This document shows positions 4,588 through 50,177 of a stretch of DNA of 64,000 nucleotides, one piece after another. Location of the stretch: assembly GCA_021292105.1 (NCBI GenBank), contig CM037875.1, positions 57,771,908-57,835,907 on the forward strand, in the 5' to 3' direction. Positions within the stretch are counted from its first letter, which is position 1, and each line of letters begins with the position of its first letter. The DNA comes from Anadara kagoshimensis. Its lineage: Eukaryota; Mollusca; Bivalvia; Arcoida; Arcidae. The position numbers and the translations under genes are program-made. The notes beneath the pieces were generated by a model. It worked only from the letters and a program-made list of their open reading frames with translations. It made no database searches and was not told the origin of the DNA.

Positions 4588-4680
4588 ATCAAAAAGTGAA
4601 AATCAACATTGAGTAGAGGAGAACTGGCCAATAAAATGTGTATATTCTTGTGATTTTATAATAAATTATTTATTACGAAT
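4588..4680 (+). other. Candidate 3' terminal exon with poly(A) signals
   Basis: An acceptor with a strong pyrimidine tract (CTATCTTTGTCTTTCAG) ends at 4587. AATAAA occurs at 4630-4635 and again at 4660-4665. If joined to the exon ending at 3618, this would be an untranslated last exon and the intron 3619-4587 would contain two retroelement fragments in opposite orientation. No reading frame of note. The link is inferred from splice signals only. Confidence 0.3.
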
Positions 4681-4844
4681 TTTCTCATTTTTGTTGTCAT
4701 TTTATCTTCATTAAAAATATATAAAGTGCCGTTTTTTTTTAACTTTTAAGATAGCCGACTTTAAAAATTATAGCAAATACCGTATTGTATAATCACGTAT
4801 ATAGATCAATCCCTAACCGCAATAATAGTTGACATTAGCATATG

Positions 4845-5062
4845 TAACACCAAGAGCACACTACAACCGTTGTCGTGTGTTCGAACACCGGTCGGGGTCT
4901 GACCAAGACTTGAAAATAGGTAGTGGCTGTTCTTTCGCCGAGCACTGCGCATTTAGAAATGAAAGTCGCGAGATCCCTCGGAAGAGACCTTAAAAGCCGA
5001 TGCCCCATGTCACGACAGAGAACCCTCCCTGCACCTTGCTATAAGCGCACGGCAAAGGATTA
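4845..5062 (+). mobile_element. tRNA-derived SINE
   Basis: A tRNA-like B box (GTGTTCGAACAC, about 4875) is followed by a body with CAAGACTTGAAAATAGGTAG, GTTCTTTCGCCGAGCACT, GAAATGAAAGTCGCG and GAACCCTCCCTGCACC. The same order occurs in the minus-strand copies at 58962, 60755 and 62020. The central part resembles the conserved core of metazoan tRNA-SINEs (Deu/Meta type, recalled). No coding capacity. Confidence 0.65.
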
Positions 5063-5071
5063 ATAGAATCT

Positions 5072-5212
5072 TACACCGGTAACAGGGTAAGACAGAGATA
5101 TCTCAAACGAGAATGAATATTTTCCTGTCCAGAACGAGCTTTAGCGAGTTCTGGACATTGAAAATATTCAACCGAGTTTGAGATATCTCTGCCTTACCCT
5201 GTTACTGGTGTA
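5072..5212. repeat. Near-perfect hairpin, about 141 bp
   Basis: The left arm TACACCGGTAACAGGGTAAG... is mirrored by ...CTTACCCTGTTACTGGTGTA, with nested arms through GAGATATCTC and CAGAACGAGCTTTAGCGAGTTCTG in the centre. It looks like a foldback or MITE-type element. Confidence 0.8.
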
Positions 5213-5560
5213 GGATTCTTTTTCTCATACATTTGCAACAAAAAACATGATTTATAAACAAAAATATACATCAGATGTTCATTTTTCATGTCACCATCCG
5301 TGCCTGCTAAAAATGACGTAATCATTTTTTGTTGACGTTCTCACGTAAAATGATTATGACGTCATCAATTAAGCGTGTGTAAGTGATTGTGCGTTGAGAA
5401 ATTGTTAGTTGACTTCGGAACTTTTCCCTTCTTATTAAGTCCCCCCAACGATAAATCCAGAGCAGGTATAACTACGCGGGAAATTTAGCGTGTAGCTTGT
5501 CTCAACCCTAGGGTGAGACAAGGAAATCCCACATGGGTAAAACGCGAGATTTCCATGTCA

Positions 5561-5616
5561 TACACCGGTAACAGGGTAAGACAGAGATATCTCTGTCTTA
5601 CCCTGTCACTGGTGTA
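5561..5616. repeat. Collapsed hairpin remnant
   Basis: Only the outer arms remain (TACACCGGTAACAGGG and its partner), joined at one GAGATATCTC. Unit 2 has the full 141-bp hairpin at the matching place (7410-7550). The missing 86 bp lie exactly between two GAGATATCTC copies, as expected of slippage across a hairpin. Confidence 0.85.
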
Positions 5617-5983
5617 GGATTCTTTTTCTCACACATTTGCAACATAAAACATGATTTGTAAACAAAAATTGCATCAAATGTTCAGTTTTCATATCACCAT
5701 CCATGCCTGCTGAAAATGACGTAATCAACTTTTGTTGACGTTCTCGCGTAAAATGATTATGACGTCATCAATTAAGCGTGTGTAAGTGATTGTGACGTTG
5801 AAAATATTGTTGGTTGACTTCGGAACTTTTCTCATGTTATTTAGTCCTCCAAACGATACATCCAGAGCATGTATAACTACGCGGGAAATTCAGCGTGTAG
5901 CTCGTCTCAACCCTAGGGTGAGACAAGGAAATCCCACATGGCTAAAAACGCGGGATTTCCATGTCACAGGTGTGAGAATAATA

Positions 5984-6137
5984 GAATCTATCATGAGTAT
6001 CCATGTAGGATAGGAAAATCTCACCCGAGGGGTTGAATATTTCAGTCAGAGACAAGGCTTGCCGAGTCTCTGACAGAAATATTCAACCCCGAGGGTGAGA
6101 TTTCCCTATCCTACATGGATAAACTCATGATTGATTC
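5984..6137. repeat. Hairpin, about 154 bp
   Basis: GAATCTATCATGAGT...ATCCATGTAGGATAGG on the left pairs with CCTATCCTACATGGAT...ACTCATGATTGATTC on the right. The inner arms are GGGTTGAATATTTC/GAAATATTCAACCC and AGAGAC/GTCTCT. The copy in unit 2 is at 7919-8072. Confidence 0.8.
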
Positions 6138-6693
6138 TTTTTCTTCCATTTTGATGACAATTTTTGGCTTGACGTATCAGTCACATCGACATCGATGCCA
6201 TCTTTGTAAATCTAACTTTGTTATTTAACGTTGTACATAAAAATAAATATTACCATCGGACAGAATGTATCTGATTTTGGTTTATACAAAAGGTATAAAC
6301 TAGAAAACAAAGTCATTTATTCTAATCTCCCAAAATAAACATTTGAAACGCAGTGAAAATATCTAAATTTTTGAGACTCGGGCGTCATTTTCCCGCAAGA
6401 CGACGTCATATCTCCACGATATCACGTCATTCAATTGTCCTTTGATTGTGATGTCACTGAAAGCCGCACGAGGAGGTGAAGTTAGGCACGTGGAGGTGAA
6501 GATAGAAATTTCTACCATCGTTTATTCAAGCGGAAATCTCTATCTCCAACATAGGAAGATATAAAAATATATAAAGTGCCGTTTTTTTTAACTTTTAAGA
6601 TAGCCGACTTTAAAAATTATAGCAAATACCGTATTGTATAATCACGTATATAGATCAATCCCTAAACGCAATAATAGTTGACATTAGCATATG

Positions 6694-6911
6694 TAACACC
6701 AAGAGCACACTACAACCGTTGTCGTGTGTTCGAACACAGGTCGGGGTCTGACCAAGACTTGAAAATAGGTAGTGGCTGTTCTTTCGCCGAGCACTGCGCA
6801 TTTAGAAATAAAAGTCGCGAGATCCTTTGGAAGAGACCTTAAAAGCCGATGCCCCATGTCACGATAAAGAACCCTCCCTGCACCTTGCTATGAGCGCACG
6901 GCAAAGGATTA
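6694..6911 (+). mobile_element. tRNA-derived SINE (duplicate copy)
   Basis: Second copy of the SINE at 4845-5062, carried by the tandem duplication. It differs by a few substitutions such as GAAATAAAAGTC for GAAATGAAAGTC. Confidence 0.65.
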
Positions 6912-6920
6912 ATAGAATCT

Positions 6921-7061
6921 TACACCGGTAACAGGGTAAGACAGAGATATCTCAAACGAGAATGAATATTTTCCTGTCCAGAACGAGCTTTAGCGAGTTC
7001 TGGACATTGAAAATATTCAACCGAGTTTGAGATATCTCTGCCTTACCCTGTTACTGGTGTA
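6921..7061. repeat. Hairpin, copy of 5072-5212
   Basis: Same palindromic structure, carried by unit 2. Confidence 0.8.
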
Positions 7062-7409
7062 GGATTCTTTTTCTCATACATTTGCAACAAAAAACATGAT
7101 TTATAAACAAAAATATACATCAGATGTTCATTTTTCATGTCACCATCCGTGCCTGCTAAAAATGACGTAATCATTTTTTGTTGACGTTCTCACGTAAAAT
7201 GATTATGACGTCATCAATTAAGCGTGTGTAAGTGATTGTGCGTTGAGAAATTGTTAGTTGACTTCGGAACTTTTCCCTTCTTATTAAGTCCCCCCAACGA
7301 TAAATCCAGAGCAGGTATAACTACGCGGGAAATTTAGCGTGTAGCTTGTCTCAACCCTAGGGTGAGACAAGGAAATCCCACATGGGTAAAACGCGAGATT
7401 TCCATGTCA

Positions 7410-7550
7410 TACACCGGTAACAGGGTAAGACAGAGATATCTCAAACGAGGATGAATATTTTCCTGTCCAGGACGAGCTTTAGCGAGTTCTGGACATTGAA
7501 AATATTCATCCGAGTTTGAGATATCTCTGTCTTACCCTGTCACTGGTGTA
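7410..7550. repeat. Complete second hairpin of unit 2
   Basis: Full 141-bp palindrome, the intact counterpart of the collapsed 5561-5616 sequence. Its arms differ slightly from those of 6921-7061 (GAGGATG for GAGAATG), so it is a separate family member. Confidence 0.85.
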
Positions 7551-8495
7551 GGATTCTTTTTCTCACACATTTGCAACATAAAACATGATTTGTAAACAAA
7601 AAATTGCATCAAATGTTCAGTTTTCATATCACCATCCATGCCTGCTGAAAATGACGTAATCAACTTTTGTTGACGTTCTCGCGTAAAATGATTATGACGT
7701 CATCAATTAAGCGTGTGTAAGTGATTGTGACGTTGAAAATATTGTTGGTTGACTTCGGAACTTTTCTCATGTTATTTAGTCCTCCAAACGATACATCCAG
7801 AGCATGTATAACTATGCGGGAAATTCAGCGTGTAGCTCGTCTCAACCCTAGGGTGAGACAAGGAAATCCCACATGGCTAAAAACGCGGGATTTCCATGTC
7901 ACAGGTGTGAGAATAATAGAATCTATCATGAGTATCCATGTAGGATAGGAAAATCTCACCCGAGGGGTTGAATATTTCAGTCAGAGACAAGGCTTGCCGA
8001 GTCTCTGACAGAAATATTCAACCCCGAGGGTGAGATTTCCCTATCCTACATGGATAAACTCATGATTGATTCTTTTTCTTCCATTTTGATGACAATTTTT
8101 GGCTTGACGTATCAGTCACATCGACATCGATGCCATCTTTGTAAATCTAACTTTGTTATTTAACGTTGTACATAAAAATAAATATTACCATCGGACAGAA
8201 TGTATCTGATTTTGGTTTATACAAAAGGTATAAACTAGAAAACAAAGTCATTTATTCTAATCTCCCAAAATAAACATTTGAAACGCAGTGAAAATATCTA
8301 AATTTTTGAGACTCGGGCGTCATTTTCCCGCAAGACGGCGTCATATCTCCACGATATCACGTCATTCAATTGTCCTTTGATTGTGATGTCACTGAAAGCC
8401 GCACGAGGAGGTGAAGTTAGGCACGTGGAGGTGAAGATAGAAATTTCTACCATCGTTTATTCAAGCGGAAATCTCTATCTCCAACATAGGAAGAT

Positions 8496-9430
8496 GGAAG
8501 AAAAAAATTTCTGCCTCTTCACCTATAGCTGGTGACGTCTAAATATAAGTAAAATATTTTTGACTTGGACGTCAAACCCCATTTAATCAACCAATGATTA
8601 CAAACTAATGAGGACATCAAGATTAAACTGATAACATAGAAACATTAAACAGGTTAATGTGTTTTAGCTCTATGTCAGCTTCACTAGGTTGGAACAGAAA
8701 CCATAAACGGTTGACACATTAAAATCACCATCCGTTATTAAACTGAGATAAGGGGGTGTTGAAATTGTTCCAATAGGTTACCTACAACTATTATTATTAT
8801 GTTTAAAACTCCAAGCTTTTTATTTATTTTCAATAGATAAAAATCAAATAGATAAAAACATGCGATAACAGGAAAGAGGCTGGTGCACTTGAATGCATTT
8901 GGATTTGATTAAAAGCATGTATCAAATGGTCGTATGGTTTTTATGAATTCTAAAAAGGGATTTTACACCTACTGTTATTATGGTATCCATAATTCTAATA
9001 CCAAAATCACGATATATTACAGTGCAGTAATCTCAGCACAATTAATTCCAAAATTATAATCATATTGGTTAAACATGATTTCCATATTAATGCCATTAAT
9101 TCTCAATTGAGTAGTGTAATATGATTATAGATAACATTTACAACCTCAACTGACGTAAACACTTTTCGTATTATTTGATTGTTATGCAAATTCGGTTTGA
9201 AGCATATTTTTTTAAAACCACAAACTTATACATCATTGTTATACAGCGTTTCATAAAATATTCAAGTAGCCATTTCCACGACATTTTTATCTTAAAGAAC
9301 AAACGAAGCTCCAAATCAAATTAGTGCAAAAAAGGTAACGGGTTTTAATATATCAATTAGCAGAAATTTAAAAATCTTTTAATTCATGGAGACAATTGAC
9401 ACTTAGTCGTGTTTTAAAAGTACTTAATCT
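8496..9430. other. Unassigned AT-rich stretch
   Basis: No exon, RNA gene or clear repeat is seen. The first bases (GGAAGAAAAAAATTTCTGCC, then TCTTCACC) look like the far arm of an inverted repeat with the GGTGAAG at the end of unit 2, so the duplicated block may have ended inside a further foldback element. Confidence 0.35.
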
Positions 9431-10401: not shown

Positions 10402-13400
10402 TGACAGCCAAAACACAAATACTATACCGCTGACGTACCGTGACAGCCAAAACACAAATACTATACCGCTGACGTACCGTGACAGCCAAAACACAAATAT
10501 CATACCGCTGACGTACCGTGACAGCGACAACACAAATACTATACCGCTGACGTACCGTGACAGCCAAAACACAAATACTATACCGCTGACGTACCGTGAC
10601 AGCGACAACACAAATACTATACCGCTGACGTACCGTGACAGCGACAACACAAATACTATACCGCTGACGTACCGTGACAGCCAAAACACAAATACTATAC
10701 CGCTGACGTACCATGACAGCCAAAACACAAATACTATACCGCTGACGTACCGTGACAGCCAAAACACAAATATCATACCGCTGACGTACCACTGACAGCC
10801 AAAACACAAATACTATACGCTGACGTACCATGACAGCCAAAACACAAATACTATACCGCTGAGTACGTGACAGCCAAAACACAAATATCATACCGCTGAC
10901 GTACCGTGAAAGCCAAACCACAATTACTATACCGCTGACGTACCGTGGCCAAAACACAAATACTATACCGCTGACGTACCGTGACAGCCAAAACACAATA
11001 CTATCCCGCTGACGTACCGCGACAGCCAAAACACAAATACTATACCGCTGACGTACCGTGACAGCCAAAACACAAATATCATACCGCTGACGTACCGTGA
11101 CAGCCAAAACACAAATACTATACCGCTGACGTACCGTGACAGCCAAAACACATATCATACCGCTGACGTACCGTGACAGCCAAAACACAAATACTATACC
11201 GCTGACGTACCGTGACAGCCAAAACACAAATACTATACCGCTGACGTACCGTGACAGCGAAACACAATTACTATACCGCTGACGTACCGTGACAGCGACA
11301 ACACAAATATCATACCGCTGACGTACCGTGACAGCCAAAACACAAATACTATACCACTGACGTACCGTGACAGCCAAAACACAAAAATCATACCGCTGAC
11401 GTACCGTGACAGCCAAAACACAAATACTATACCGCTGACGTACGTGACAGCCAAAACACAAAAATCATACCGCTGACGTACCGTGACAGCGAAACACAAT
11501 TACTATACCGCTGACGTACCGTGACAGCGAAACACAAATATCATACCGCTGACGTACCGTGACAGCCAAAACACAAATACTATACCACTGACGTACCGTG
11601 ACAGCCAAAACACAAAAATCATACCGCTGACGTACCGTGACAGCCAAAACACAAATACTATACCACTGACGTACCGTGACAGCCAAAACACAAATATCAT
11701 ACCGCTGACGTACCGTGACAGCCAAAACACAAATACTATACCGCTGACGTACCGTGACAGCCAAAACACAAATACTATACCGTTGACGTACCGTGACAGC
11801 GACAACACAAATATCATACCGCTGACGTACTGTGACAGCCAAAACACAAATATCATACCGCTGACGTACCGTGATAGCCAAAACACAAATATCATACCGC
11901 TGACGTACCGTGACAGCCAAAACACAAATATCATACCGCTGACGTACGTGACAGCCAAAACACAAAAATCATACCGCTGACGTACCGTGACAGCCAAAAC
12001 ACAAATACTATACCGTTGACGTACCGTGACAGCCAAAACACAAATATCATAACTCTGACGTACCGTGACAGCCAAAACACAAATATCATACCGCTGACGT
12101 ACCGTGACAGCCAAAACACAAATACTATACCGCTGAGGTACCGTGACAGGCAAAACACAAATACTATACCGCTGACGTACGTGACAGCCAAAACACAAAT
12201 ATACCGCTGACGTACGTGACAGCCAAAACACAAATATCATACCGCTGACGTACGTGACAGCCAAAACACAAATACTATACCGCTGACGTACCGTGACAGC
12301 CAACCACAAATATCATACCGCTGACGTACCGTGACAGCCAAAACACAAATATCATACCGCTGACGTACCGTGACAGCCAAAACACAAACATCATACCGCT
12401 GACGTACCGTGACAGCCAAAACACAAATATCATACCGCTGACGTACGTGACAGCCAAAACACAAATATCATACCGCTGACGTACGTGACAGCCAAAACAC
12501 AAATATCATACCGCTGACGTACGTGACAGCCAAAACACAATAATCATACCGCTGACGTACCGTGACAGCCAAAACACAAATACTATACCACTGACGTACC
12601 GTGACAGCCAAAACACAAATATCATACCGCTGACGTACCGTGACAGCCAAAACACAAATACTATACCGCTGACGTACGTGACAGCCAAAACACAAAAATC
12701 ATACCGCTGACGTACCGTGACAGCCAAAACACAAATACTATACCGTTGACGTACCGTGACAGCCAAAACACAAATATCATACCTCTGACGTACCGTGACA
12801 GCCAAAACACAAATACTATACCGCTGACGTACCGTGACAGCCAAAACACAAATACTATACCGCTGACGTACCGTTACAGCCAAAACACACATACTATACC
12901 GCTGACGTACCGTGACAGCCAAAACACAAATACTATACCGCTGACGTACCGTGACAGCCAAAATACAAATATCATACCGCTGACGTACCGTGACAGCCAA
13001 AACACAAAATACTATACCGCTGACGTACCGTGACAGCCAAAACACAAATACTATACCGCTGAGGTACCGTGACAGTCAAAACACAAATACTATACCGCTG
13101 ACGTACCGTGACAGCCAAATCACAAATACTATGCCGCTGACGTACCGTGACAGCCATAACACAAATACTATACCGCTGACGTACCGTGACAGCCAAATCA
13201 CAAATACTATACCGCTGACGTACCATGACAGCCAAAACACAAATACTATACCGCTGACGTATAGTGACAGCCAAAACACAAATACTATACCGCTGACGTA
13301 GCGTGACAGCCAAATCACAAATACTATACCGCTGACGTACCATGACAGCCAAAACACAAATACTATACCGCTGACGTATAGTGACAGCCAAAACACAAAT

Positions 13401-13693
13401 ATCATACCGCTGACGTACCGTGACAGCGAAAACACAAATACTATACCGCTGACGTACCGTGACAGCGAAACACAATTACTATACCGCTGACGTACGTGAC
13501 AGCAAAAACACAAATATTATACCGCTGACGTACCGTGACAGCCAAAACACAAATATCATACCGCTGACGTACCGTGACAGCCAAAACACAAATACTATAC
13601 CGCTGACGTACCGTGACAGCCAAAACACAAAAATCATACCGCTGACGTACCATGACAGCCAAAACACAAAAATCATACCGCTGACGTACCGTG
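10402..13693. repeat. 39-bp minisatellite, about 84 units
   Basis: Unit begins TGACAGCCAAAACACAAATA and ends GCTGACGTACCG. The main variants are AATACTATACC versus AATATCATACC, GACAGCGACAACAC versus GACAGCCAAAACAC, and 1-3-base deletions such as GACGTACGTG. Because 39 is thirteen codons, long open frames appear on both strands (for example a 363-residue one), reading repeats such as YVSGIVFVFWLSR or DSQNTNTIPLTYR. Frame-breaking indels between units and the lack of any start context or splice sites argue against coding. A higher-order three-unit (117-bp) repeat is visible at about 13184-13417. Confidence 0.97.
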
Positions 13694-15235: not shown

Positions 15236-15598
15236 TCAGATTTCAACATCTTCAAATGTAATAGGGTGTACTTTTCTACTTTCAAATAAACGTTTTGGTG
15301 ACTTGCTTCCTGAAATAAATTTCGCTTCACGTGGTTGTGATGACGACGTATCTGTTGTATTCACGTTTTGTTCGTTTTCTGTGATTTGAACACGTTCAGT
15401 CGTTTCAGTTCTTTCTGGTTGATCGAGATCTTGAATTTCGACGGAAGAACTCTCCGTGATGGTTTGACATGCTACTGATTTTATGCCATCTTTTGTCTTG
15501 TCCACTGCAATACCAGAATCATTGGACATTTCAGATGAAGCTACTTCAAACATGACAGAGCTACGACCAGTCAACCATAACGTTTCCATTGTTTTTCC
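15236..15598 (-). CDS. PstS-ectodomain receptor, last coding exon (cyclase end and tail)
   Basis: The acceptor TTTATTTCAG is followed by GKTMETLWLTGRSS, which continues the cyclase domain. GKGxMxTYWLxG is the conserved end of receptor guanylate cyclases, and the join to exon 2 (ILSFQ in phase 0) restores it exactly. The remaining 105 or so residues form a hydrophilic cytoplasmic tail rich in Ser, Thr, Glu and Asp, with SSSVEIQDL and KSPKRLFESRK, and end FEDVEI before a stop. The tail has no recognisable domain and is probably disordered. An internal ATG four codons in should not be taken as a start, because the exon is spliced. Coding length is 363 nt (120 residues). Confidence 0.85.
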   Translation of the reverse strand, partial: GKTMETLWLTGRSSVMFEVASSEMSNDSGIAVDKTKDGIKSVACQTITESSSVEIQDLDQPERTETTERVQITENEQNVNTTDTSSSQPREAKFISGSKSPKRLFESRKVHPITFEDVEI

Positions 15599-18376
15599 CT
15601 GAAATAAAACAACACAATACAGATATTTTATTATGCAACCCAGTACTTCTCAGTAGTGTATTAGTCATCTTAGTAATAATAATGTAAACATAATTATGAA
15701 ATTATACATGTCTTCTTAAATTTTCATGGATGGCATATATACATGTACATATAAGGGCTGTTGGTTTACTGGTTACTATTTGTTGAAATAGTCTCGTCTT
15801 TTGTTTTTTAATGTGTGTATTTATGAACCACCGGATACAAAATGAGTATGATGGTTGGGGGCGCTCTTATAGTACAATGGTCACAGCAATGTCCATTTAA
15901 TCGAGTGCCCGTCCAAAGTATAGAATTATAGGTTTATCAAGTTTTTTTATTTGAGTGTTTTTTATTTAGGTTTGTTTGTGTTTTTGATGGGGTTGGGGGT
16001 GACCAAGTAAATAGTTTTCAGTTACATATTTTTAGCTCACCTGAGCCAAAGGCTCAGATGAGCTATTGCAATCTATCACCGTCCGTCGTGCGTCGTCCGT
16101 CGTCCGTCGTGCGTCGTGCGTCGTCCGTCGTGTGTAAACTTTACATTTTAATCTTCTCCTCCAAAACTACTGGGCCATATTTGATGAAACTTAGTGATTA
16201 TCATGCCTGGGTAGCAGCCTTTCAAAATTGTGTTCGGGGCTTGGCCACGCCCAACAAGATGGCCGCTGTTACTAAAAATAGCAAAAAGACAAAAAAATCT
16301 TCTTCTCTGAATCCAAAAGGTGCAGGCAAATTTTGATTGGGTATTTGGATTCAGCATACCTGGGAACATTAAAATTGTGTTTTTCATGAAAATTAGACGA
16401 AAAATAGGTTACGCGTTTTTTGCGTAAAATTACGTAATTTTTAAAATGAGACATTTATTGTTATAACTTCATAACGGCTGAAGATAATTGTATGGAGTTT
16501 TCACTGTTGATCTTGTCTTGCAATTTTCTTCCAATTGATGTCAAGGTCGAAGGTCAAGGTCATGTCCCAGTTTTTGGACCTTTGATAAAAAATGCTATTT
16601 TTATAACATTTCTCGTGAAAATGGCGTAGGATTTTCAGTTATTTGTAGGTATTAACATGACGATCATTTTGATACATAGATCAGGGTCATGGGTTCAAAG
16701 GTCAAGGTCACAGATGTCCAAGAATACCAAAATAGTTAATTATCTCAAAAACTATAAACTTTTTGTATAGGCATGTATATTGGAATATTGTAGGTATTGG
16801 CCTAACGATAATTTTGATATATAGATAAAGGTCATAGGTTCAAAGGTCAAGGTCATAGACGCGAACGAATACTTAAATGGTTAATTATCTCAAAAACTAT
16901 AAACTTTTTGTATAGGCATGTATATTGGAATATTGTAGGTATTGGTCTAACGATCATTTTGATATATGAATGAAGGTCATAGGTTCAAAGGTCAAGGTCA
17001 TAGCTGCGAACGAATATTTAAATGGTTAATTATCTCAAAAACTATAAACTTTTTGTATAGGCATGTATATTAGAATATTGTAGGCATTTGCACAACAATC
17101 ATTTTGATATATAAATGAAGTTCATAGGTTCAAAGGTCAAGGTCATAGATGCAAACTAATCCTTAAATGGTTAATTATCTCAGAAACTATAAACTTTTTG
17201 TATAGGCATGTATATTAGAATATTGTAGGTATTGGCCTATCGATCATTTTGATATATGATTGAAGGTCATAGGTTCAAAGGTCAAGGTCATAGGTGCAAA
17301 TGAATACTTAAAAGGTTAATTATCTCAAAAACTATATAAACTTTTTGTATAGGCATGTATATTGGAATAAGGTATGTATTGGCCTAACGATCATTTTGAT
17401 ATATGAATGAAGGTCATAGGTTCAAAGTTCAAGGTTATAGATGCAAATGAAAACTTAAATGGTTAATTATCTCAAAAACTATAAACTTTTTGTATAGGCA
17501 TGTATATTGGAATAAGGTACGTATTGGCCTAACGATCATTTTGATATATGAATGAAGGTCATAGGTTTAAAGGTCAAGGTCATAGATGCAAACGAATACT
17601 TAAATGGTTAATTATCTCAAAAACTATAAACTTTTTGTATAGGCATGTACATTGGAATATTGTAGGCATTTGCACAACAATCATTTTGATATATGAATGA
17701 AGGTCATAGGTTTAAAGGTCAAGGTCATAGATGCAAACGAATACTTAAATGGTTAATAATCTCAAAAACTATAAACTCTTTGTATAGGCATGTATATTGG
17801 AATACTGTAGGTATTGGCCTAATGCACATTTTAATATACAGATGTTTTAGCTGTTTATAAATAATTATTGTAGCTAGACTTTAAATATGTTATATATAGC
17901 ATACTTATATAATAATTATTAATAATTAATTTGCAAAAATACTTGCATATTATTGGCCCTTACTGCTGAAAATTTTGATATTCTCTTTTATTAATGTCAT
18001 TGACCATTGAACCTCTGCATAAGATATGTACTCTTCTCCAGGTGAGCGTTAAGGCCCATGGGCCTCTTGTTTCAGTTTCCAATCGATTCATCTATTATTA
18101 ACGTGTTTCAGATAGGGATAACAATTGCAATTCAAGGATATGCTTAAATTGATTTCCATTTCCTTATTAACACACTCAAAAATGTTTCTAATTTCAATCT
18201 GAAGAAAAATGCAAAATGACTATGTTTTGCTAATTCCATGCTTAAATAGAGTAATAGAGAAAAATTACAAGTGGGTCCCGATGATGTTGGCTATAGAATA
18301 ACCTCAGTTGCATGTTATTTATATAAAAGGCTTTGTACTTTAATCGCACACTTTTCCTGTGAGTTAATTAAATTAC
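15599..18376 (-). other. Intron 2 of the receptor gene
   Basis: The donor CAG|GTAATT ends exon 2 at 18377 and the acceptor TTTCAG|GG starts exon 3 at 15598. Phase 0. It contains the 2-kb repeat element at 16034-18070. Confidence 0.85.
16034..18070 (+). mobile_element. 2-kb non-coding repeat element with 145-bp internal tandem repeats
   Basis: The left end is a short hairpin, AGCTCACCTGAGCC/GGCTCAGATGAGCT. The right end reads CCAGGTGAGCGTTAAGGCCC then ATGGGCCTCTTGTTT. GCTCACCTG at the left and CAGGTGAGC at the right are inverted to each other. A GTCCGTCGTGC microsatellite lies at 16079-16135. From about 16680 to 17860 there are about eight tandem units of about 145 bp, each with AAAGGTCAAGGTCATAG and ATAAACTTTTTGTATAGGCA. 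GTCAT blocks recur at 16831, 16976, 17121, 17266, 17413, 17558 and 17703. No ORF. A relative in the opposite orientation is at 56610-57125. I have seen such ends as common repeats in bivalves; the class is uncertain. Confidence 0.75.
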
Positions 18377-20962
18377 CTGGAAAGATAAAATTCCTGCTTC
18401 TTCAAGTTTAAATTCTTCGTTCATTCTTAATTTCTTCCCTAATCCACCCGACACGTGGATTTTTGAAGCTAAAGAAGCACGTGCTAAAGCATGTGCATTG
18501 TCAAACACAGACCCTAAAACTTCAAACTTCGGTACCGTTGAGCCTATAATTCCACTTATCCCATGTCCTATATCTACACCAAGTTTGACCTTCAAGTTAA
18601 TTTCAGATGAGCCCGGTATTTTTACACTTGTTGTTTTGGAGATTATGTCCAGACACAGATGCGCCATTGCAACACAAACTTCATTCTCATTTTCGCTTTT
18701 TTCGCCCAAACCTTTAATAAGAATAAATGAACCAGAAGTACTTTCCAGATATGCAGAATATTGTTTTGACAATAACCCAATTTCCGTGTTTAAATAGTTA
18801 AGGTAAGCAAATGCCTCTGCAGGTGAGAAATCAGTGACTAGTTTATCCAAATCCACTATGTCTACTACTATTATACCTAAAGCTTTGTGAATTTTAGCTT
18901 CTATTGCCTCGCCACTGCACACCATTGAAGCCAGTGATGTAGGTATCAACGAGGACATTAAACCCTCCATATTCTCCTTTGATATAAGCAGTTCCTGTGT
19001 CTGATCACTGATTCTCTGTTCTAGATGTTGTGTATATTCCTCCATAGATTCCATCATGGCGTCTAATACTGATTTACCCTTTGATCTGGTTCTGCGGAAC
19101 ATCTTCAATATTTGATCAAAGTTCGGTCTACATAGAGGGTCGTCTGACCAAGCAATTTCCATGACTTGGCGAACAGTAACAGGAATATCACTACTAACTT
19201 CCGGTCTTAGATTGTTATTGACAACAGCGTTTATCACTTCCTTTGGAGACATGTAGTCCGCATGCTCATAGTAGGGATCTTCCCGCGTAAAAATCTCTTG
19301 TAATATTATTGCAAAGCTGTATACGTCAGTATAACTTGACGGCGACAAGGTGAACTCTGATTTAATTATTTCTGGTGCCACCCAAAAATCTTCAAATGAA
19401 GCCATATGATGACCGTAGCTATTCAGAGTCATGTTACGTAGATAAGATGTATAATTTTCTTTTGAAGTCGATACTGTTAGCAATTTCAGATATTCCCAGT
19501 CACTGACTTTGACTATCCACCGGTTATCAATGAGACAGCATGACGACTTCAAACTACCATGCGTGATTCCTTGATTATGAAGAAACTGCATTCCATGGGC
19601 TATATCATTAGCTAAACAGTACTTAAAATCATCCGACAAGTTAAACTTGTTGTCCTGTAAAATATCTGTCATAGGTCCTTTAATACAATATTCACCAATC
19701 ACGTATCGTTGTTTGTCTAATTCCGTCAGACCATAAAACCTCACCACATTTGTATGCACAACAGATTCACGCATCCAAATTAAACACCTTTTCATTTCTA
19801 AAGTAAAATGACCAATTTTATTCATTTCCATTAATCTTAAACCAACATTATACCCTTTCCATTTTCCAGGCCACTGTAAAATTTTACCTAAGATATTATC
19901 ACCTTCTGGAATATCCTGGAATGAAGAGCTGGACCTGAATGATTTCAGACCGGATATTTTAGATTTTTGTGATGTTTCCCTCGGCCATCATACACAAACA
20001 GTATATCCTCGATGGGAATATTCCAGTCATTTCTGTTGATCATTTTCATTAGTTTCATTTTCTGATACACTATATAGGTACACAAAGTAAATATGGCTAT
20101 AAAAAGTACAACTAAAGAAACCACAACTGGTATAACCCATTCATCATTTGTTTCTTGTGGCTTTTGCATGTCTTGTTGAACCATATCCCATACATTACTA
20201 CCTTTACAAGTCATTACTTTAAGGACATTATCTGTAATACGTGTTACCATAAGTTTACTTAGCGGAGCAAACCCCTTTTCCTCGCACACTTTGATCTGGT
20301 CAACATTTGTCATAAACCAGTAGATATATCGTACAAGTTCTTTAGCGGAATCACAATTGGTCATTTCCGATTTATACAGTATTAAGTGTGTGAACCCGGC
20401 TATTGGATATGCTAATTCGCTCTGACTGTCCAGGAAATCAAATGTTAAATCATTAGTAAATCTAGAAGCATAATCCATTGCACTTTGTATAGACTCGCTA
20501 GACACGTGTGCGTAAAGCCCGACTTTATTCTCAATTTTAGCGTGTAACAGATCAGACTCCAATGCGTCAGCCACTGATAAATACGCAATGGAATATCTAA
20601 ATGATATAAGTAACCCTGATACGCCTCTGTTACGCTCTCCGTAGTACCTTATAACATTCTGTCCCCAGTTGTAAGGCTGGTTCGTGTCCGTATTAAGACC
20701 TGTTGAGAACGTCCCATATGTAGATGCCCATGCCTCACTGAAAGTACTAAGAGCTCCAGTAAATATATTTGTTGTTCCAGATTTATCGGCCCTGGCGATG
20801 ACTATAATTTCCTTGTTGGGCATTGTTGAGTTCGGGTTATTCATTTGAAAGGTCGATTCGTTCCAGTACCTGTGAGTACCGTTGTATATACCGACAATTT
20901 GTTCCCTTGTCAGATGAAGCTGATGACTCAAATCTGGTAAATTGTATGCTAAAACCACTCCT
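18377..20962 (-). CDS. PstS-ectodomain receptor, large middle exon
   Basis: This exon holds most of a single-pass receptor. After the acceptor TTTCAG|AGGAG it completes the PstS-like ectodomain (GGVVLAYN; ARADKSGTT, residues about 166-174 of the predicted protein; RGVSG..SIAYLS). One membrane helix follows (VIPVVVSLVVLFIAIF, about 388-410), then a WNIPIEDI juxtamembrane motif. The kinase-homology domain has HTNVVRFYGL, GEYCIKG, HGSLKSS in place of the HRD loop, SDWE in place of DFG, APE intact, and VGLR in place of VAIK. A signalling helix (LDAMMESMEEYTQHLE) leads to the cyclase-like domain: VVDIVDL keeps the first metal Asp, but SGSF, KFEVLG and DNAHALAR replace the second Asp, the guanine Cys and the catalytic Asn/Arg. 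The reading frame breaks once, within 19947-19987, equivalent to one missing base. With that base the three exons give 1,092 residues. Confidence 0.88.
19947..19987 (-). other. Frame break inside the receptor exon
   Basis: The ectodomain and membrane frame runs to a TGA at 19945-19947. The kinase and cyclase frame is open from just after a TGA at 19988-19990. The switch must lie in this 41-nt overlap. One missing base (or two extra) explains it. There is no room for an intron, and the only heptamer resembling a slippery site (GGGAAAC) is not in the phase needed for -1 slippage. An assembly indel or a null allele are the main options. Confidence 0.85.
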
Positions 20963-23900
20963 CTGAAATGTAAAAAAAATGTTACTGAAGCGCACAAACT
21001 ATTAAGTGATCAAATATCCCCATTTCAAGGGATTACTAACAGTAACTTTCTAATTATTGTCAGTCTAGTGTGCTCGTAAAAAAACTAATTAATCGGACTA
21101 AAAGATGAATAAAAATACAAAACATCAACAGCTTTTGTATATTGAAGCCTATGAAAATTGTAACCGTTTTCGATTTAAAATTATATTATGGAGGTTTAAA
21201 ACTAAATAGCAATGATAAATAACGAACCCCAACGTTTTCATATGGATATGAAATCGCTTTGCTATCGCCTTCAGATCAAACATTTTTTGTTGGTGAAATG
21301 TCTGGTAAATCTTACTCCTTAATGAACATACAACTGAACTGTGATGATTTTATCTGGATCTTATTGTAAACGATTGATTATGGTTGTGCCAATATGACTT
21401 GGTAAGCCTAATTGGAAGATTAAATCGCATGGAATTGAATAGTTGAACTTTGTGTTCTAAACTGCTATTTTAATTGTTGAAATAAAATGTCAATTACATT
21501 CTGAACGCCATATATAGATAATGTTGCATGAAAAAACTACTTATCCGTCATTTTAGTTACAATTTTACATGCCGAAGAAGATGTGTTTCGAGGAAATTAA
21601 AACAGATAAAGCACACAATAAAATGGGGTTTTCAGTATAAATATCTAGGCTATCAATGAGTTGACATATCATTATTTTATCTGAACAATTCCTAACAAGA
21701 GACCACAAATAAAAACTATTAACACAATTTGATAAACATGTCAAACAGAATATATTTTCATAGTTCCGGTAATTCTTGTAAGAGTTTGTTTGAAGGGATT
21801 AAAAATAAACCAACGAAGATCAATTGTTTTTATCCGTCTTTTCATATTTATTGTTGGGATTAACATTCTCAAATTTTCCCTAATTATGTTCTATTACTGA
21901 TTGACTCTCCCAAGAAAATGGTGTCTAGAATGCAAAAGAAAATTATATGAAAAAGTAAAAGGTTTAGATTTGTAAAGAACGAACAAACTGAAACTGAAAT
22001 ATTTTGCAAGGCGTATCGTATCCCCATCATATTCAATTAAACTTAAACTGAAATATAAATATGTAAGGCATATCCCCAACATCTTCAATTAAACTGACGG
22101 TAATACATGCAATAAGGATTTTTGTTAATAAATTTTTGTTGAACTGTGGTAATGGTCCATCAAACATCTTTCACAATCTTTTTTTGTATTTACAAAATAT
22201 TGGATTTCAAAAAGTTTTGTATGAACCATGGCCATACTTTTTCTTGAAAAACCATGGAAATATTCATGTAGTCGGTCACTAATTTTTAACTAGACGTCCT
22301 TATACCTGCAAGTGAAACAATCTTAAAATCAGTCTATGGGACTTAAAATCTTAAAATCTTGTATGGTATAAAGGAATCTGTAACTGAGAAATATGTACTT
22401 TTTAATAACCATAGCAACAAAGAACACAAAAAGAATGAACGAAATTAAGAAAACAAGACAAGTCACAATGCTCAAAACAGGACTGGAAATCTATGGTCTG
22501 GAATAAATCAATAACATTACACTCTACGTGCCTACATAGATGATAAAACGTGAATCTTAGCATGTCAGAAGATTTCAAAACAATACAGTATCGATTATAA
22601 AAAGTAATTAGTATGATAGTAAGTCGAAGTTGTAAATGAATCGCAAACATTCTCCTGCGAATGAAACAGTCAAACCGGAAAAATATCACACATGAATGCC
22701 AAAAAAGTTTGCAATAATCTATATCCTTATTAAACAGGTTTGATTGTTACTAGACAAAATTTTGTTTTTATTGTGTTTATATTTGTGGCTTATTAAGTTT
22801 ACGATAATTGATTTCGATAAAAAATTCAAATTAAAATGAAAGTTTGTCAAAAGAGTATTGTTGTGAAAGGCGTCGAGTAGGAAAATGATTATACATTTAA
22901 CGCTTTTGAAGATGCTGACAATTTAATATTTGATCAAGCATCATTTTAGAATGAAATTTGATATATATATAACGTGTGTGTGGGGGGGTGCATTATCTTA
23001 ATTACATAAAGATGATTCTGGGCCCGGTTGTTCTAAGCTCCGTTACCTTAATCAGCTGGTTAGCCAAAATGTGATTTGTTTTGTAGGTAAGGTCACTGAT
23101 TTCTGTTCAATAGATAATGCATATAATTTTTTATGATATAAAATCAGTTAAAATGTTAAAGCTATAGTTTTATTTCAATATTTTTTATTATGATAACATT
23201 TTGAATTTCCACTTATCATTTAGTTTAGTAAACTGTGCATTAAACAACTGGAAGAGATGTAATTAAAAAAACTCGGACGTTTCAGAATCGGCGATCCAGA
23301 ATTCTTGTCATTTTCATTTATTCGTGTCCTTGTTTTTTTTGTCAAGTAATGACTTTGAGTTATAAAAAAAGAGGTATAAATAAGCTACGTCTGATACCTT
23401 CAAATAGCTAATTAGTATATTAGATTTTTAATTCAGTTTTTTCAGTAAAATATTATAGATACAAAATATGTTTTAAAAACTACCACGGTTTTCAACCATT
23501 TATGACGTTATGATGACGTCAATATAAAGGTCGTTATCTATTTGTATGCTGCATTCTAACAATGCACAATGTTTCGATGTGATAATTCCGGCTAAATTTT
23601 GGAAAAAAAATTAATATAGGAATTGAAGTGAAAACGTCAAAATGAGGTTTTGGTTTTTAGAAGAGGCCCTTAATCTATCATGTCGGTAAATAATTCAATA
23701 TATTTATATTGAAGGAAACATTAGTTATTGTATATGAATTAAGAAATATTTCTTTTCAATGATATGAGAAATAAAAAATTTTATAAACGTTTCTGAGAGT
23801 TTGATGCACAATAACTAAATGATTGCTGAACACATTTACTTGAGAGCGACACCAAGTAACGTTATAACATATTTCTCAATTTTAGCCATTTTGTGAAAAT

Positions 23901-24800
23901 TGTAATCAGTCATAAAAATAATCATAAAACAGACTTTTTATATAGATGTTTTCTGTTTTTACATTGTGACCTAACCAATCTAGCTGAAATGAAAAGTTAT
24001 TAAGTTTTGTATTATCCACAATAGAAATTATATGTTTCATTCAATGCTTTGACCTATGATAACAATATATGATACAGTTTTGACAGAGAAATAAAAAAAT
24101 AATATGTATATGTTCTTTATTGTCTGTGCATTGTAATCCATTAACTTTGTATGGTATTGTAATCCGTAAAATAGGAGCGACAAAACCGAATTAATGTTAA
24201 CAGATATTGCTAGTAAAAGTCTACATTTTGATGTTTTAGGATAATGACCACTCAGAAAAAGGAATTAAGATTTATTGTTGTTCATATTCAGTTCATATTT
24301 CAGTTTTTATGCTGTTTGATGTTTATCTATAGTAGTTACGTGATTCCAATCATGTTTTGTCCGTAATTTGGTTTATTTTTTATTTTCTGTTTTCTAACTT
24401 TTATCCGCTTAAACGATTCAAGATATCGGGGAAAGGGTAGAAAAAGAAATCAGAAAATGTAATAATTTTTCGTTTCACAAACGCAACACACAAATCCATG
24501 ACGTCAACAACTTAGCACTATTTTGATGTCAATTTCCGTTATGTTTTATTTAAGTATCTGCTCTGTAGGAGAACCTTCTTTCGAAGTACATCCGGTAACC
24601 ACTACCATGTAGTGCTATATTTTTTTCATAATCGGATGTACGTATAGGAGTTTAGAGAGCTAACAACTAACGCAAACGAAAATAAAACGAACAGCTGTAC
24701 ATTGACGTTTAATCATACAGGTTTGATTTCTTCTTAAAATTTTATGATTGAGAATATTATTAGTGACCTTTTGCGGAAAATATAATTTTCAACTACTTAC
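20963..24800 (-). other. Intron 1 of the receptor gene
   Basis: Donor GG|GTAAGT at 24800 and acceptor TTTCAG at 20963-20965; the phase-2 codon GG|A restores the glycine in MAGGVV. AT-rich; I see no exon, RNA gene or strong repeat inside its 3.8 kb. Confidence 0.85.
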
Positions 24801-25129
24801 CCGGCCATTGTTGGTATAGTAATGAGATCCGGGTAATTCTTTTGTTCGTCTGCTGAGAGCAATGTGTCCGAACCAGCATATTCCACAGTCTTGTCTTTGA
24901 TGGCGGTTTTTCCATTACTACTTCCGACAGCTTCATAGCTCATCTCCAAAGAAACCTGGTTTTGTCTGTGAGCTTTGTAAGCCGGTATCCAGGATTTATA
25001 CACCTCGTTTGGAAAACTAGCCCCCTTTCCGTGAAGAGGTACTGTTTCAGTTTCATTTACAATGCTTACAATGAACGCAAAACAAAAACAGATATTAATT
25101 TTAATCTTGTTTTGCATTATATATTGCAT
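24801..25129 (-). CDS. PstS-ectodomain receptor, first coding exon
   Basis: The exon starts at an ATG and encodes a signal peptide (KIKINICFCFAFIVSIVN, residues 8-25), then the start of a PstS-type phosphate-binding fold: GKGASFPNEVYKSW (34-47), AVGSSNGK (67-74), AGSDTLLS (85-92) and IPTMAG. In E. coli PstS the matching motifs ASF/ATF, GSSGG and GASD contribute backbone and side-chain contacts to phosphate (known for the family). The donor GG|GTAAGT is in phase 2. No prokaryotic-style neighbours are present; the ectodomain is spliced into a typical animal receptor. A strong acceptor at 25488 could start this exon with a 5' UTR of about 360 nt. The second Met at residue 5 is an alternative start and does not change the signal peptide. 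Confidence 0.87.
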
Positions 25130-28562: not shown

Positions 28563-29905
28563 TCTAAATCACAATCTAAAAGGCAAAGTAAAAACAAACA
28601 TACTAGTCCATGTCTAAATCACACTTTAAAAGGCAAAGTAAAAACAAACATACTAGTCCATGTCTAAATCACACTCTAAAAGGCAAAGTAAAAACAAACA
28701 TACCAGTCCATGTCTAAATCACAGTCTAAAAGGCAAAGTAAAAACAAACATACTAGTCCATGTCTAAATCACAATCTAAAAGGCAAAGTAAAAACAAACA
28801 TACTAGTCCATGTCTAAATCATAATCTAAAAGGCAAAGAAAAAACAAATATACCAGTCCATGTCTAAATCACAAACTAAAAGGCAAAGTAAAAACAAACA
28901 TACTAGTCCATGTCTAAATCACACTTTAAAAGGCAAAGTAAAAACAAACATACTAGTCCATGTCTAAATCACACTCTAAAAGGCAAAGTAAAAACAAACA
29001 TACCAGTCCATGTCTAAATCACAGTCTAAAAGGCAAAGTAAAAACAAACATACTAGTCCATGTCTAAATCACAATCTAAAAGGCAAAGTAAAAACAAACA
29101 TACTAGTCCATGTCTAAATCACAATCTAAAAGGCAAAGTAAAAACAAAAATACTAGTCCATGTCTAAATCATAATCTAAAAGGCAAAGAAAAAACAAATA
29201 TACCAGTCCATGTCTAAATCACAATCTAAAAGGCAAAGTAAAAACAAACATACTAGTCCATGTCTAAATCACACTTTAAAAGGCAAAGTAAAAACAAAAA
29301 TACTAGTCCATGTCTAAATCATAATCTAAAAGGCAAAGAAAAAACAAATATACCAGTCCATGTCTAAATCACAATCTAAAAGGCAAAGTAAAAACAAACA
29401 TACTAGTCCATGTCTAAATCACAATCTAAAAGGCAAAGTAAAAACAAAAATACTAGTCCATGTCTAAATCATAATCTAAAAGGCAAAGAAAAAACAAATA
29501 TACCAGTCCATGTCTAAATCACAATCTAAAAGGCAAAGTAAAAACAAACATACTAGTCCATGTCTAAATCACAATCTAAAAGGCAAAGTAAAAACAAAAA
29601 TACTAGTCCATGTCTAAATCATAATCTAAAAGGCAAAGAAAAAACAAATATACCAGTCCATGTCTAAATCACAATCTAAAAGGCAAAGTAAAAACAAACA
29701 TACCAGTCCATGTCTTAATCACAATCTGAAGGGCAGAGTAAAAACAAACATACCAATCCATGTCCAAATCACAATCTGAACAGCAAAGTAAAAACAAACA
29801 TACCAGTCCATGTCTAAATCACAATCTAAAAGACAAAGTAAAAACAAACATACTTGTCAATGTCTAAATCACAATCTATAAGGCAAAGTAAAAACTTTGA
29901 AAACT
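28563..29905. repeat. 50-bp minisatellite built from a Penelope-like 3' end
   Basis: About 27 units of 50 bp; each contains AGGCAAAGTAAAAACAAACA and TACTAGTCCATGTCTAAATC. This is the terminal segment of the dispersed Penelope-like copies (minus orientation), and the array exits into AAAACTTTGAAAACTG, the next part of that element. A three-unit higher-order repeat of 150 bp is visible: the variant ATAATCTAAAAGGCAAAGAA recurs near 29171, 29321, 29471 and 29621. Confidence 0.95.
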
Positions 29906-45164: not shown

Positions 45165-45756
45165 TAAACCTGTTTTAATTTTGCAAAACAAATACTTATT
45201 ATTATTATTCTGATTGGTATGTTTAAAAGAAGAACGGCACTTTTGATTTTTATATGTAACCAAAAGAAACATGATATTTGAGAAATAAATCGGTAAATTG
45301 GTAGTATTTGTTTCCTTTAAATTAGTTCATTAAAAACAAATATGAGGGTAAATTACATCTGGACTATGTTTTTCTATTTGCAATGATCTTGAAAAAAATC
45401 TCTAGTTTTTAGTTACCAATTTATTATCATCGTATTCAATCATGTTGTATTACCTTAGGAAGGTAGGTGGATTTGGTAATGGTTCTTTTTTTACTCATTT
45501 CAACATCGTATTTGGATTTCCACAATTTTTGTCCAATCACTACTGATAAGGAATTGTATTCCAAGGCGACGGTCTAGTTCTGCAAAATAAAAAGTGGTTT
45601 AGTAATACTTTCTACTTCTAAAGCTTTCAAAAGGTTCTAAAAACCGGGAAGACCAACTTTTAACTTGGGGACAGAATTACAGAACCACCCATGTTGTATT
45701 TACCAACATACAGTTTCTCAATACAATTCGGAACAGGCATTATTTGCAACAATACA

Positions 45757-45845
45757 CTTTATGATTAACGTACTACACACTTTATGATTAACGTACTACA
45801 CACTTTATGATTAACGTACTACACACTTTATGATTAACGTACTAC
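45757..45845. repeat. 23-bp tandem repeat, four units
   Basis: Unit CTTTATGATTAACGTACTAC plus ACA. Copy B has about eleven units at 49925-50177. Confidence 0.93.
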
Positions 45846-49924: not shown

Positions 49925-50177
49925 TACACTTTATGATTAACGTACTACACACTTTATGATTAACGTACTACACACTTTATGATTAACGTACTACACACTT
50001 TATGATTAACGTACTACACACTTATGATTAACGTACTACACACTTTATGATTAACGTACTACACACTTTATGATTAACGTACTACACACTTTATGATTAA
50101 CGTACTACACACTTTATGATTAACGTACTACACACTTTATGATTAACGTACTACACACTTTATGATTAACGTACTAC
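49925..50177. repeat. 23-bp tandem repeat, about eleven units
   Basis: Same unit as 45757-45845; one unit has lost a T (CACTTATG). Confidence 0.93.

Follow-up and report, generated by a model that had tools for sequence, protein, structure and literature searches.

The window analysed here, a 64,000-nucleotide stretch of the Anadara kagoshimensis genome (contig CM037875.1, positions 57,771,908 to 57,835,907), contains a single clear protein-coding gene. This gene lies on the minus strand in three exons and its predicted product joins a bacterial-type PstS phosphate-binding domain to the membrane helix and intracellular part of an animal receptor guanylate cyclase. The gene is a real and unusual variant of the receptor-cyclase kind. 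On balance, it appears to encode a type I membrane receptor of the animal receptor-guanylate-cyclase family, in which a PstS-type Venus flytrap forms the ectodomain and a pseudo-cyclase would either gate an active partner or belong to a non-catalytic or clearance-type receptor. The order of the domains, the restored splice joins, the kept phosphate pocket, the homology to NPR1 from membrane helix to cyclase and the loss of most catalytic residues of the cyclase can all be read from the sequence itself. The features of the gene are as follows.

24801..25129, minus strand: exon 1, with the ATG, the signal peptide and the first part of the PstS-like domain, ending GG/gtaagt (phase 2)
25049..25129, minus strand: predicted signal peptide of about 27 residues (hydropathy 1.59 over 19 residues, core at residues 9-27), with its cleavage site inferred
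24866..25018, minus strand: predicted pocket residues of exon 1, S38 (25018-25016), S70 (24922-24920) and D88 (24868-24866)
18377..20962, minus strand: exon 2, with the rest of the PstS-like domain, the membrane helix, the kinase-homology domain, the signalling helix and most of the cyclase-like domain
20221..20962, minus strand: second part of the PstS-like domain, to about residue 357 (TIGR00975 and PDB PstS matches)
20629..20793, minus strand: predicted pocket residues of exon 2, R167, G172, T173 and N221
20080..20136, minus strand: single membrane helix (residues 386-404, hydropathy 2.99); the juxtamembrane stretch after it aligns with NPR1
19945..19987, minus strand: frame break zone, in which the ectodomain frame ends with KYPV and a stop at 19945 (stop included) and the kinase frame opens at 19987
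19100..19798, minus strand: kinase-homology domain (Pfam PK_Tyr_Ser-Thr, 6.7e-33), with HGSLKSS against HGNLKSS in NPR1, and SDW against TDY
18932..19090, minus strand: signalling helix or dimerisation coiled coil, limits approximate (NPR1 alignment)
18389..18898, minus strand: exon 2 part of the guanylate-cyclase-like domain, catalytically degenerate (Pfam 1.2e-14; NPR1 and sGC alpha-1 alignments)
15236..15598, minus strand: exon 3, with the last cyclase-like strand GKTMETLWLTGR (15598-15563), followed by a tail rich in Ser and Thr and the stop

The exon structure is well marked in the sequence. Exon 1 begins with MQYIMQNKIKINICFCFAFIVS, and the two introns are bounded by the donors GG/gtaagt (exon 1) and CCAG/gtaatt (exon 2) and the acceptors tttcag/AGGAGTG (exon 2) and tttcag/GGAAAA (exon 3). 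All four sites fall at about the 98.7th to 99.9th percentile among the minus-strand GT or AG sites of the window, as scored with a simple weight matrix. More specifically, the spliced protein aligns to PstS structures of the PDB across the first join (MA-G-GVV) without a gap, and the match rises from 67 bits for exon 2 alone to 115 bits (E 3e-32) once exon 1 is spliced to it. Exon 3 in turn joins exon 2 in frame, moving the end of the match to the Pfam cyclase profile Guanylate_cyc from position 167 to 182 of 183 and its score from 57.9 to 66.1 bits. Thus the three minus-strand exons proposed in a preliminary description of this DNA are borne out by strong donors and acceptors at both introns, and the junction MAG/GVV inside the PstS fold does restore the family sequence, as that description held. 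Its statement that the exons are in phase is correct for the splice joins but not for a single open frame from exon 1 to exon 3, because exon 2 switches frame once. The intron between exons 2 and 3 also carries a 145-bp tandem array of 8 copies (16643-17838).

The predicted ectodomain is a genuine PstS-type domain. TIGR00975, the NCBI model for PstS, matches residues 33-355 at 3.1e-59 over profile positions 2-310 of 315, and PBP_like_2 (1.1e-23) is the sole Pfam domain detected in the ectodomain; the ANF-receptor ectodomain that is typical of receptor guanylate cyclases, if not universal among them, was not detected there by Pfam. Similarity to the DING proteins (6e-6) is far weaker than to PstS (3e-32), and the DINGGG N-terminus is absent, the predicted mature N-terminus lying near ETVPLHGKGASFP. 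Nor does the window offer a PstCAB context, as no transporter family was matched by the 9 other open reading frames scanned (from a list of 31 of at least 75 amino acids, which takes in neither three tandem arrays nor positions 4600-8500 nor any of the gene span and would overlook short exons). Whereas PstS ordinarily serves a transporter, the domain here is fused to a receptor chassis.

Seven phosphate-coordinating residues are given for the PstS paralogue PhoX of X. citri in the available text of PMC5439949, and seven of seven are kept in the predicted pocket as S38, S70, D88, R167, G172, T173 and N221. These positions were mapped by motif and spacing rather than by alignment with PhoX. Among 85 bacterial relatives (87 loci gave open reading frames, of which 2 were dropped for want of a blastp match at 1e-5), 78 columns are at least 90% conserved, and 54 of these are also kept here. 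The kept pocket supports phosphate binding by the ectodomain. The likeness to bacterial PstS and PhoX thus takes in the whole domain and every coordinating residue, whereas identity is only about 30% and the domain here belongs to an intron-containing membrane receptor rather than to an ATP-binding cassette transporter.

From the membrane helix onward the homology is to NPR1. The helix KMKLMKMINRNDWNIPIEDI aligns to the membrane helix of NPR1, and the alignment with NPR1 continues collinearly from there to the signalling helix, through the frame break, which was read as X (6.1e-43), although conservation is weak at the break itself. The domain swap therefore lies outside the membrane and, because NPR1 aligns on both sides, the frame break lies inside a homologous stretch. 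The kinase-cyclase part matches NPR1 (GC-A; PDB 9bcv) at 5.4e-55, with helix, juxtamembrane stretch, kinase-homology domain, signalling helix and cyclase aligning in order, and the kinase-homology domain lacks the catalytic Asp just as NPR1 does in the same alignment. Ectodomain, single helix, kinase-homology domain, signalling helix and cyclase thus follow each other as in a receptor guanylate cyclase, albeit across the frame break, and the predicted intracellular part is of that type. What distinguishes the two receptors is the ectodomain, an ANF-receptor (class I) flytrap in NPR1 and a PstS-type flytrap here, and the loss here of most catalytic residues. The domain order of the preliminary description, from signal peptide to cyclase-like domain, is confirmed by Pfam, hydropathy and the NPR1 alignment, and the Pfam search that it suggested matched all three families (PBP_like_2, PK_Tyr_Ser-Thr and Guanylate_cyc).

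The cyclase domain is probably a pseudo-cyclase, judging from its motifs. At the two positions that we take to be the metal-binding aspartates, the first is retained (VVDIVDL against FSDIVGF in the NPR1 and sGC alpha-1 alignments) whereas the second is lost, being a gap in the NPR1 alignment and Ser in the sGC alpha-1 alignment. This loss, together with that of the guanine-specifying Glu, reflects the replacement of KVETIGDA by LESTSGSF. In addition, CLFGDTVNTASRM is replaced by EVLGSVFDNAHAL, so that a Cys, an Asn and an Arg are gone, the loss of the Asn being alignment-dependent since one Asn stands one residue further along; the roles of the Glu, Cys, Asn and Arg are those given in the available part of PMC7384201. 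Because most catalytic residues are missing, direct production of cyclic GMP (cGMP) upon phosphate binding is unlikely. The guanylate-cyclase-like domain of the preliminary description is thus present, matched by Pfam and completed by exon 3, but most of its catalytic residues are not; in similar fashion the proposed animal sensor of phosphate or a similar oxyanion keeps the PstS pocket in its favor but probably loses the direct cGMP output.

If the pocket functions as its residues suggest, phosphate would bind the flytrap and the flytrap would close. By homology to NPR1, closure would then be relayed through the single helix, the kinase-homology domain and the signalling helix of a dimer. Because the receptor's own cyclase is degenerate, its output may pass through an active partner, competition or clearance; that is, the receptor would not make cGMP alone but would pair with and gate a catalytically competent receptor cyclase, or alternatively would act by competition or as a non-catalytic, clearance-type receptor. 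The partner mechanism is a serious candidate, with a probability somewhat below even. A fuller proposal, in which the protein is a plasma-membrane sensor of extracellular inorganic phosphate built from a domesticated PstS flytrap on a natriuretic-receptor chassis and serves, within a heterodimer of receptor cyclases, as the regulatory half that phosphate gates, is more tentative again.

The frame break in exon 2 bears on all of these proposals. No single open frame spans exon 1 to exon 3 in the assembled sequence, and the shift amounts to one missing base or two extra, with a run of five A at 19968-19964 inside the frame break zone. The open stretches on either side of the break comprise 354 and 539 codons, which for one given start, 67% AT and independent bases would have chances of about 1e-12 and 7e-19, respectively. 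Loss of one nucleotide beside the five-A run is the simplest cause of the frame change. Because two long open stretches remain, with no other disruption seen in about 3.3 kb of coding sequence, this loss is more likely an assembly error or a private allele than a sign that the gene became a pseudogene long ago.

Several observations weigh against the favored interpretation. As it stands, the assembly encodes a truncated receptor of 448 amino acids ending in KYPV, and a decaying gene would likewise be expected to show both a frame break and lost catalytic residues. The TIGR00975 score of 200.6 bits falls 4.4 bits short of the cut-off of 205. Given the background of 54 in 78 columns, seven of seven pocket residues would be expected by chance in about 7% of draws, and the pocket therefore backs but does not prove phosphate binding. 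Finally, the hetero-partner is hypothetical.

Among the alternatives, a real disruption of the frame survives best, although it is judged unlikely. The product would then be no more than a truncated receptor with a PstS ectodomain, a helix and a short tail, resembling the clearance receptor NPR-C, or the gene would be a young pseudogene. The change of frame within exon 2 agrees with this, as does a pocket that is kept whereas the cyclase has lost catalytic residues; however, the 539 downstream codons remain open (about 7e-19) and match NPR1 at 5.4e-55, the sole disruption adjoins the five-A run, and exon 3 still joins in frame. It is less probable that an additional short intron in exon 2 restores the frame. 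There are 54 GT-AG pairs of at least 35 nt that could link both frames without a stop, and an acceptor at 19916 ranks at the 99th percentile, but the two best pairs rely on donors of the 91st and 89th percentiles, and of these one (278 nt) removes the membrane helix while the other spans only 35 nt. The donor of an 80-nt pair (19995-19916) is poor, and no intron is needed for the stretch to read collinearly with NPR1, though at the break itself conservation is weak. These intron models were enumerated and judged weaker than the loss of one nucleotide.

A canonical, active guanylate cyclase stimulated by phosphate would suit the overall architecture and the domain matches but is very improbable, since the alignments show neither the second metal Asp nor the guanine-specifying Glu and Cys nor the catalytic Arg, and the Asn falls into place only after a shift of one residue. 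Programmed -1 frameshifting as the link between the two frames is harder still to credit: the required shift is indeed -1 and CAAAAAT lies inside the zone, but this heptamer is not a canonical slippery site of the form X XXY YYZ.

Bacterial contamination or a chimeric assembly is the least credible of the alternatives. The PstS domain is otherwise bacterial, yet here an intron with strong splice sites interrupts it and its two parts rejoin without a gap, the larger part shares one exon (exon 2) and one frame with the membrane helix, the PstS and kinase parts are alike in codon-position composition, and the bacterial relatives found are no more than 34% identical to it. More specifically, 392 stretches matched one of two peptide patterns and 243 of these encode relatives, of which the best 80 show 27-34% identity to the ectodomain. 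A comparison with bacterial PstS in a tree had been suggested in the preliminary description; in a quick tree of 86 rows the ectodomain lies on an end branch of 3.42, its exact place unsure, and the smallest well-supported set that includes it has 22 rows from many phyla. The low identity (at most 34%) and the end branch of 3.42 together argue strongly against bacterial contamination or a recent transfer of the PstS part, and the earlier conclusion that this is one animal gene is upheld by the intron-split domain with its gapless join and by the helix in the same exon and frame.

The divergence fits an old acquisition of the PstS domain and names no donor. No recent donor was found among the bacterial relatives with either of the two patterns or among plasmid and phage records, 64 and 19 of which, respectively, match the ectodomain at less than 60%. 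Scans of viral contigs with the PstS part and with the kinase-cyclase part gave no relatives, such single-protein scans reaching close relatives only, and tblastn found no paralogues within the window. One record labelled as a bacteriophage from human faeces (MT837013.1) encodes a PstS relative of 33% identity, but the record bears the label UNVERIFIED and its DNA may come from a bacterium.

Animal receptor cyclases with a bacterial oxyanion-sensing domain have been described before. The nearest precedent is the NIT-GCs, which according to the available text of PMC7400543 carry a bacterial nitrate/nitrite NIT domain on natriuretic-receptor-type cyclases in placozoans, molluscs, annelids and others, and for one of which, NIT-GC1, a signalling role is reported in an annelid (PMC10584369, in the part available). 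The preliminary description, in giving the known receptor cyclases of animals an ANF-receptor ectodomain instead, was therefore too broad. The NIT-GCs, known from many phyla, likewise place a bacterial oxyanion-sensor domain atop an animal natriuretic-receptor-type cyclase; they differ in that a helical NIT domain lies between two membrane helices, whereas here there is a class II flytrap (PstS), one helix and a degenerate cyclase. No NIT domain between two helices was found in the present protein, which has a PBP_like_2 ectodomain and one strong helix besides the signal peptide.

Other known systems resemble the receptor in part. DING proteins, which include a human phosphate-binding protein, are phosphate-binding flytraps reported from eukaryotic tissue, and according to the available text of PMC7922408 their eukaryotic genes are absent from genomic databases. 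Venus kinase receptors, which belong to invertebrates, likewise cross the membrane once and combine a flytrap ectodomain with an intracellular domain of kinase type; as described in the portions available of PMC2680970 and PMC4026697, however, their flytrap resembles that of class C G-protein-coupled receptors, their kinase is a tyrosine kinase and no cyclase domain is named. In Caenorhabditis elegans, receptor cyclases (GCY-14, GCY-8 and ODR-1/DAF-11) are linked to the sensing of inorganic ions and can form heterodimers that share catalytic sites, obligate in the case of ODR-1/DAF-11, but no PstS ectodomain is described in the available part of the source (PMC5225109). In the Pacific oyster 23 receptor cyclases are known, of which eight are oyster-specific (PMC4883820, whose available part gives no account of ectodomains), and given this expansion ectodomain swaps could be sought there. 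The preliminary description knew of no described example of a PstS-type receptor cyclase, and likewise none occurs among the literature matches listed, which comprise titles and abstract openings and exclude subscription papers, preprints and protein databases such as InterPro. The architecture may already be catalogued.

To our knowledge, the mechanism by which animals sense extracellular phosphate is still open. If the favored interpretation is true, the receptor would be a concrete and testable animal phosphate sensor, built on a fold that is proven to bind phosphate and whose pocket is kept. It would also mean that animals have, in a second case after the NIT-GCs, set a bacterial small-anion sensor on a receptor cyclase, a pattern that suggests a general route in evolution.

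Outside the receptor gene, the 9 further open reading frames (83-142 amino acids) have no Pfam match at or above the cut-off, one giving a weak match to Rtf2 (E 0.075). A tRNA-Thr (CGT) gene lies at 2681-2755 on the minus strand (Rfam tRNA match of 71 bits). Direct duplications of segments of a unit of about 1.85-1.94 kb lie at 4733-7898; 300-nt samples of them are 98-100% identical, and one sample has a further 93% copy at 7407. A 39-bp satellite array with strong strand skew occupies 10402-13693 (85 copies, 92% matches), and a 50-bp tandem array lies upstream of the receptor gene at 28563-29895 (27 copies, 93% matches). The 23-bp unit ACACTTTATGATTAACGTACTAC forms near-perfect arrays at 45754-45845 (4 copies) and 49926-50177 (11 copies), about 4 kb apart.

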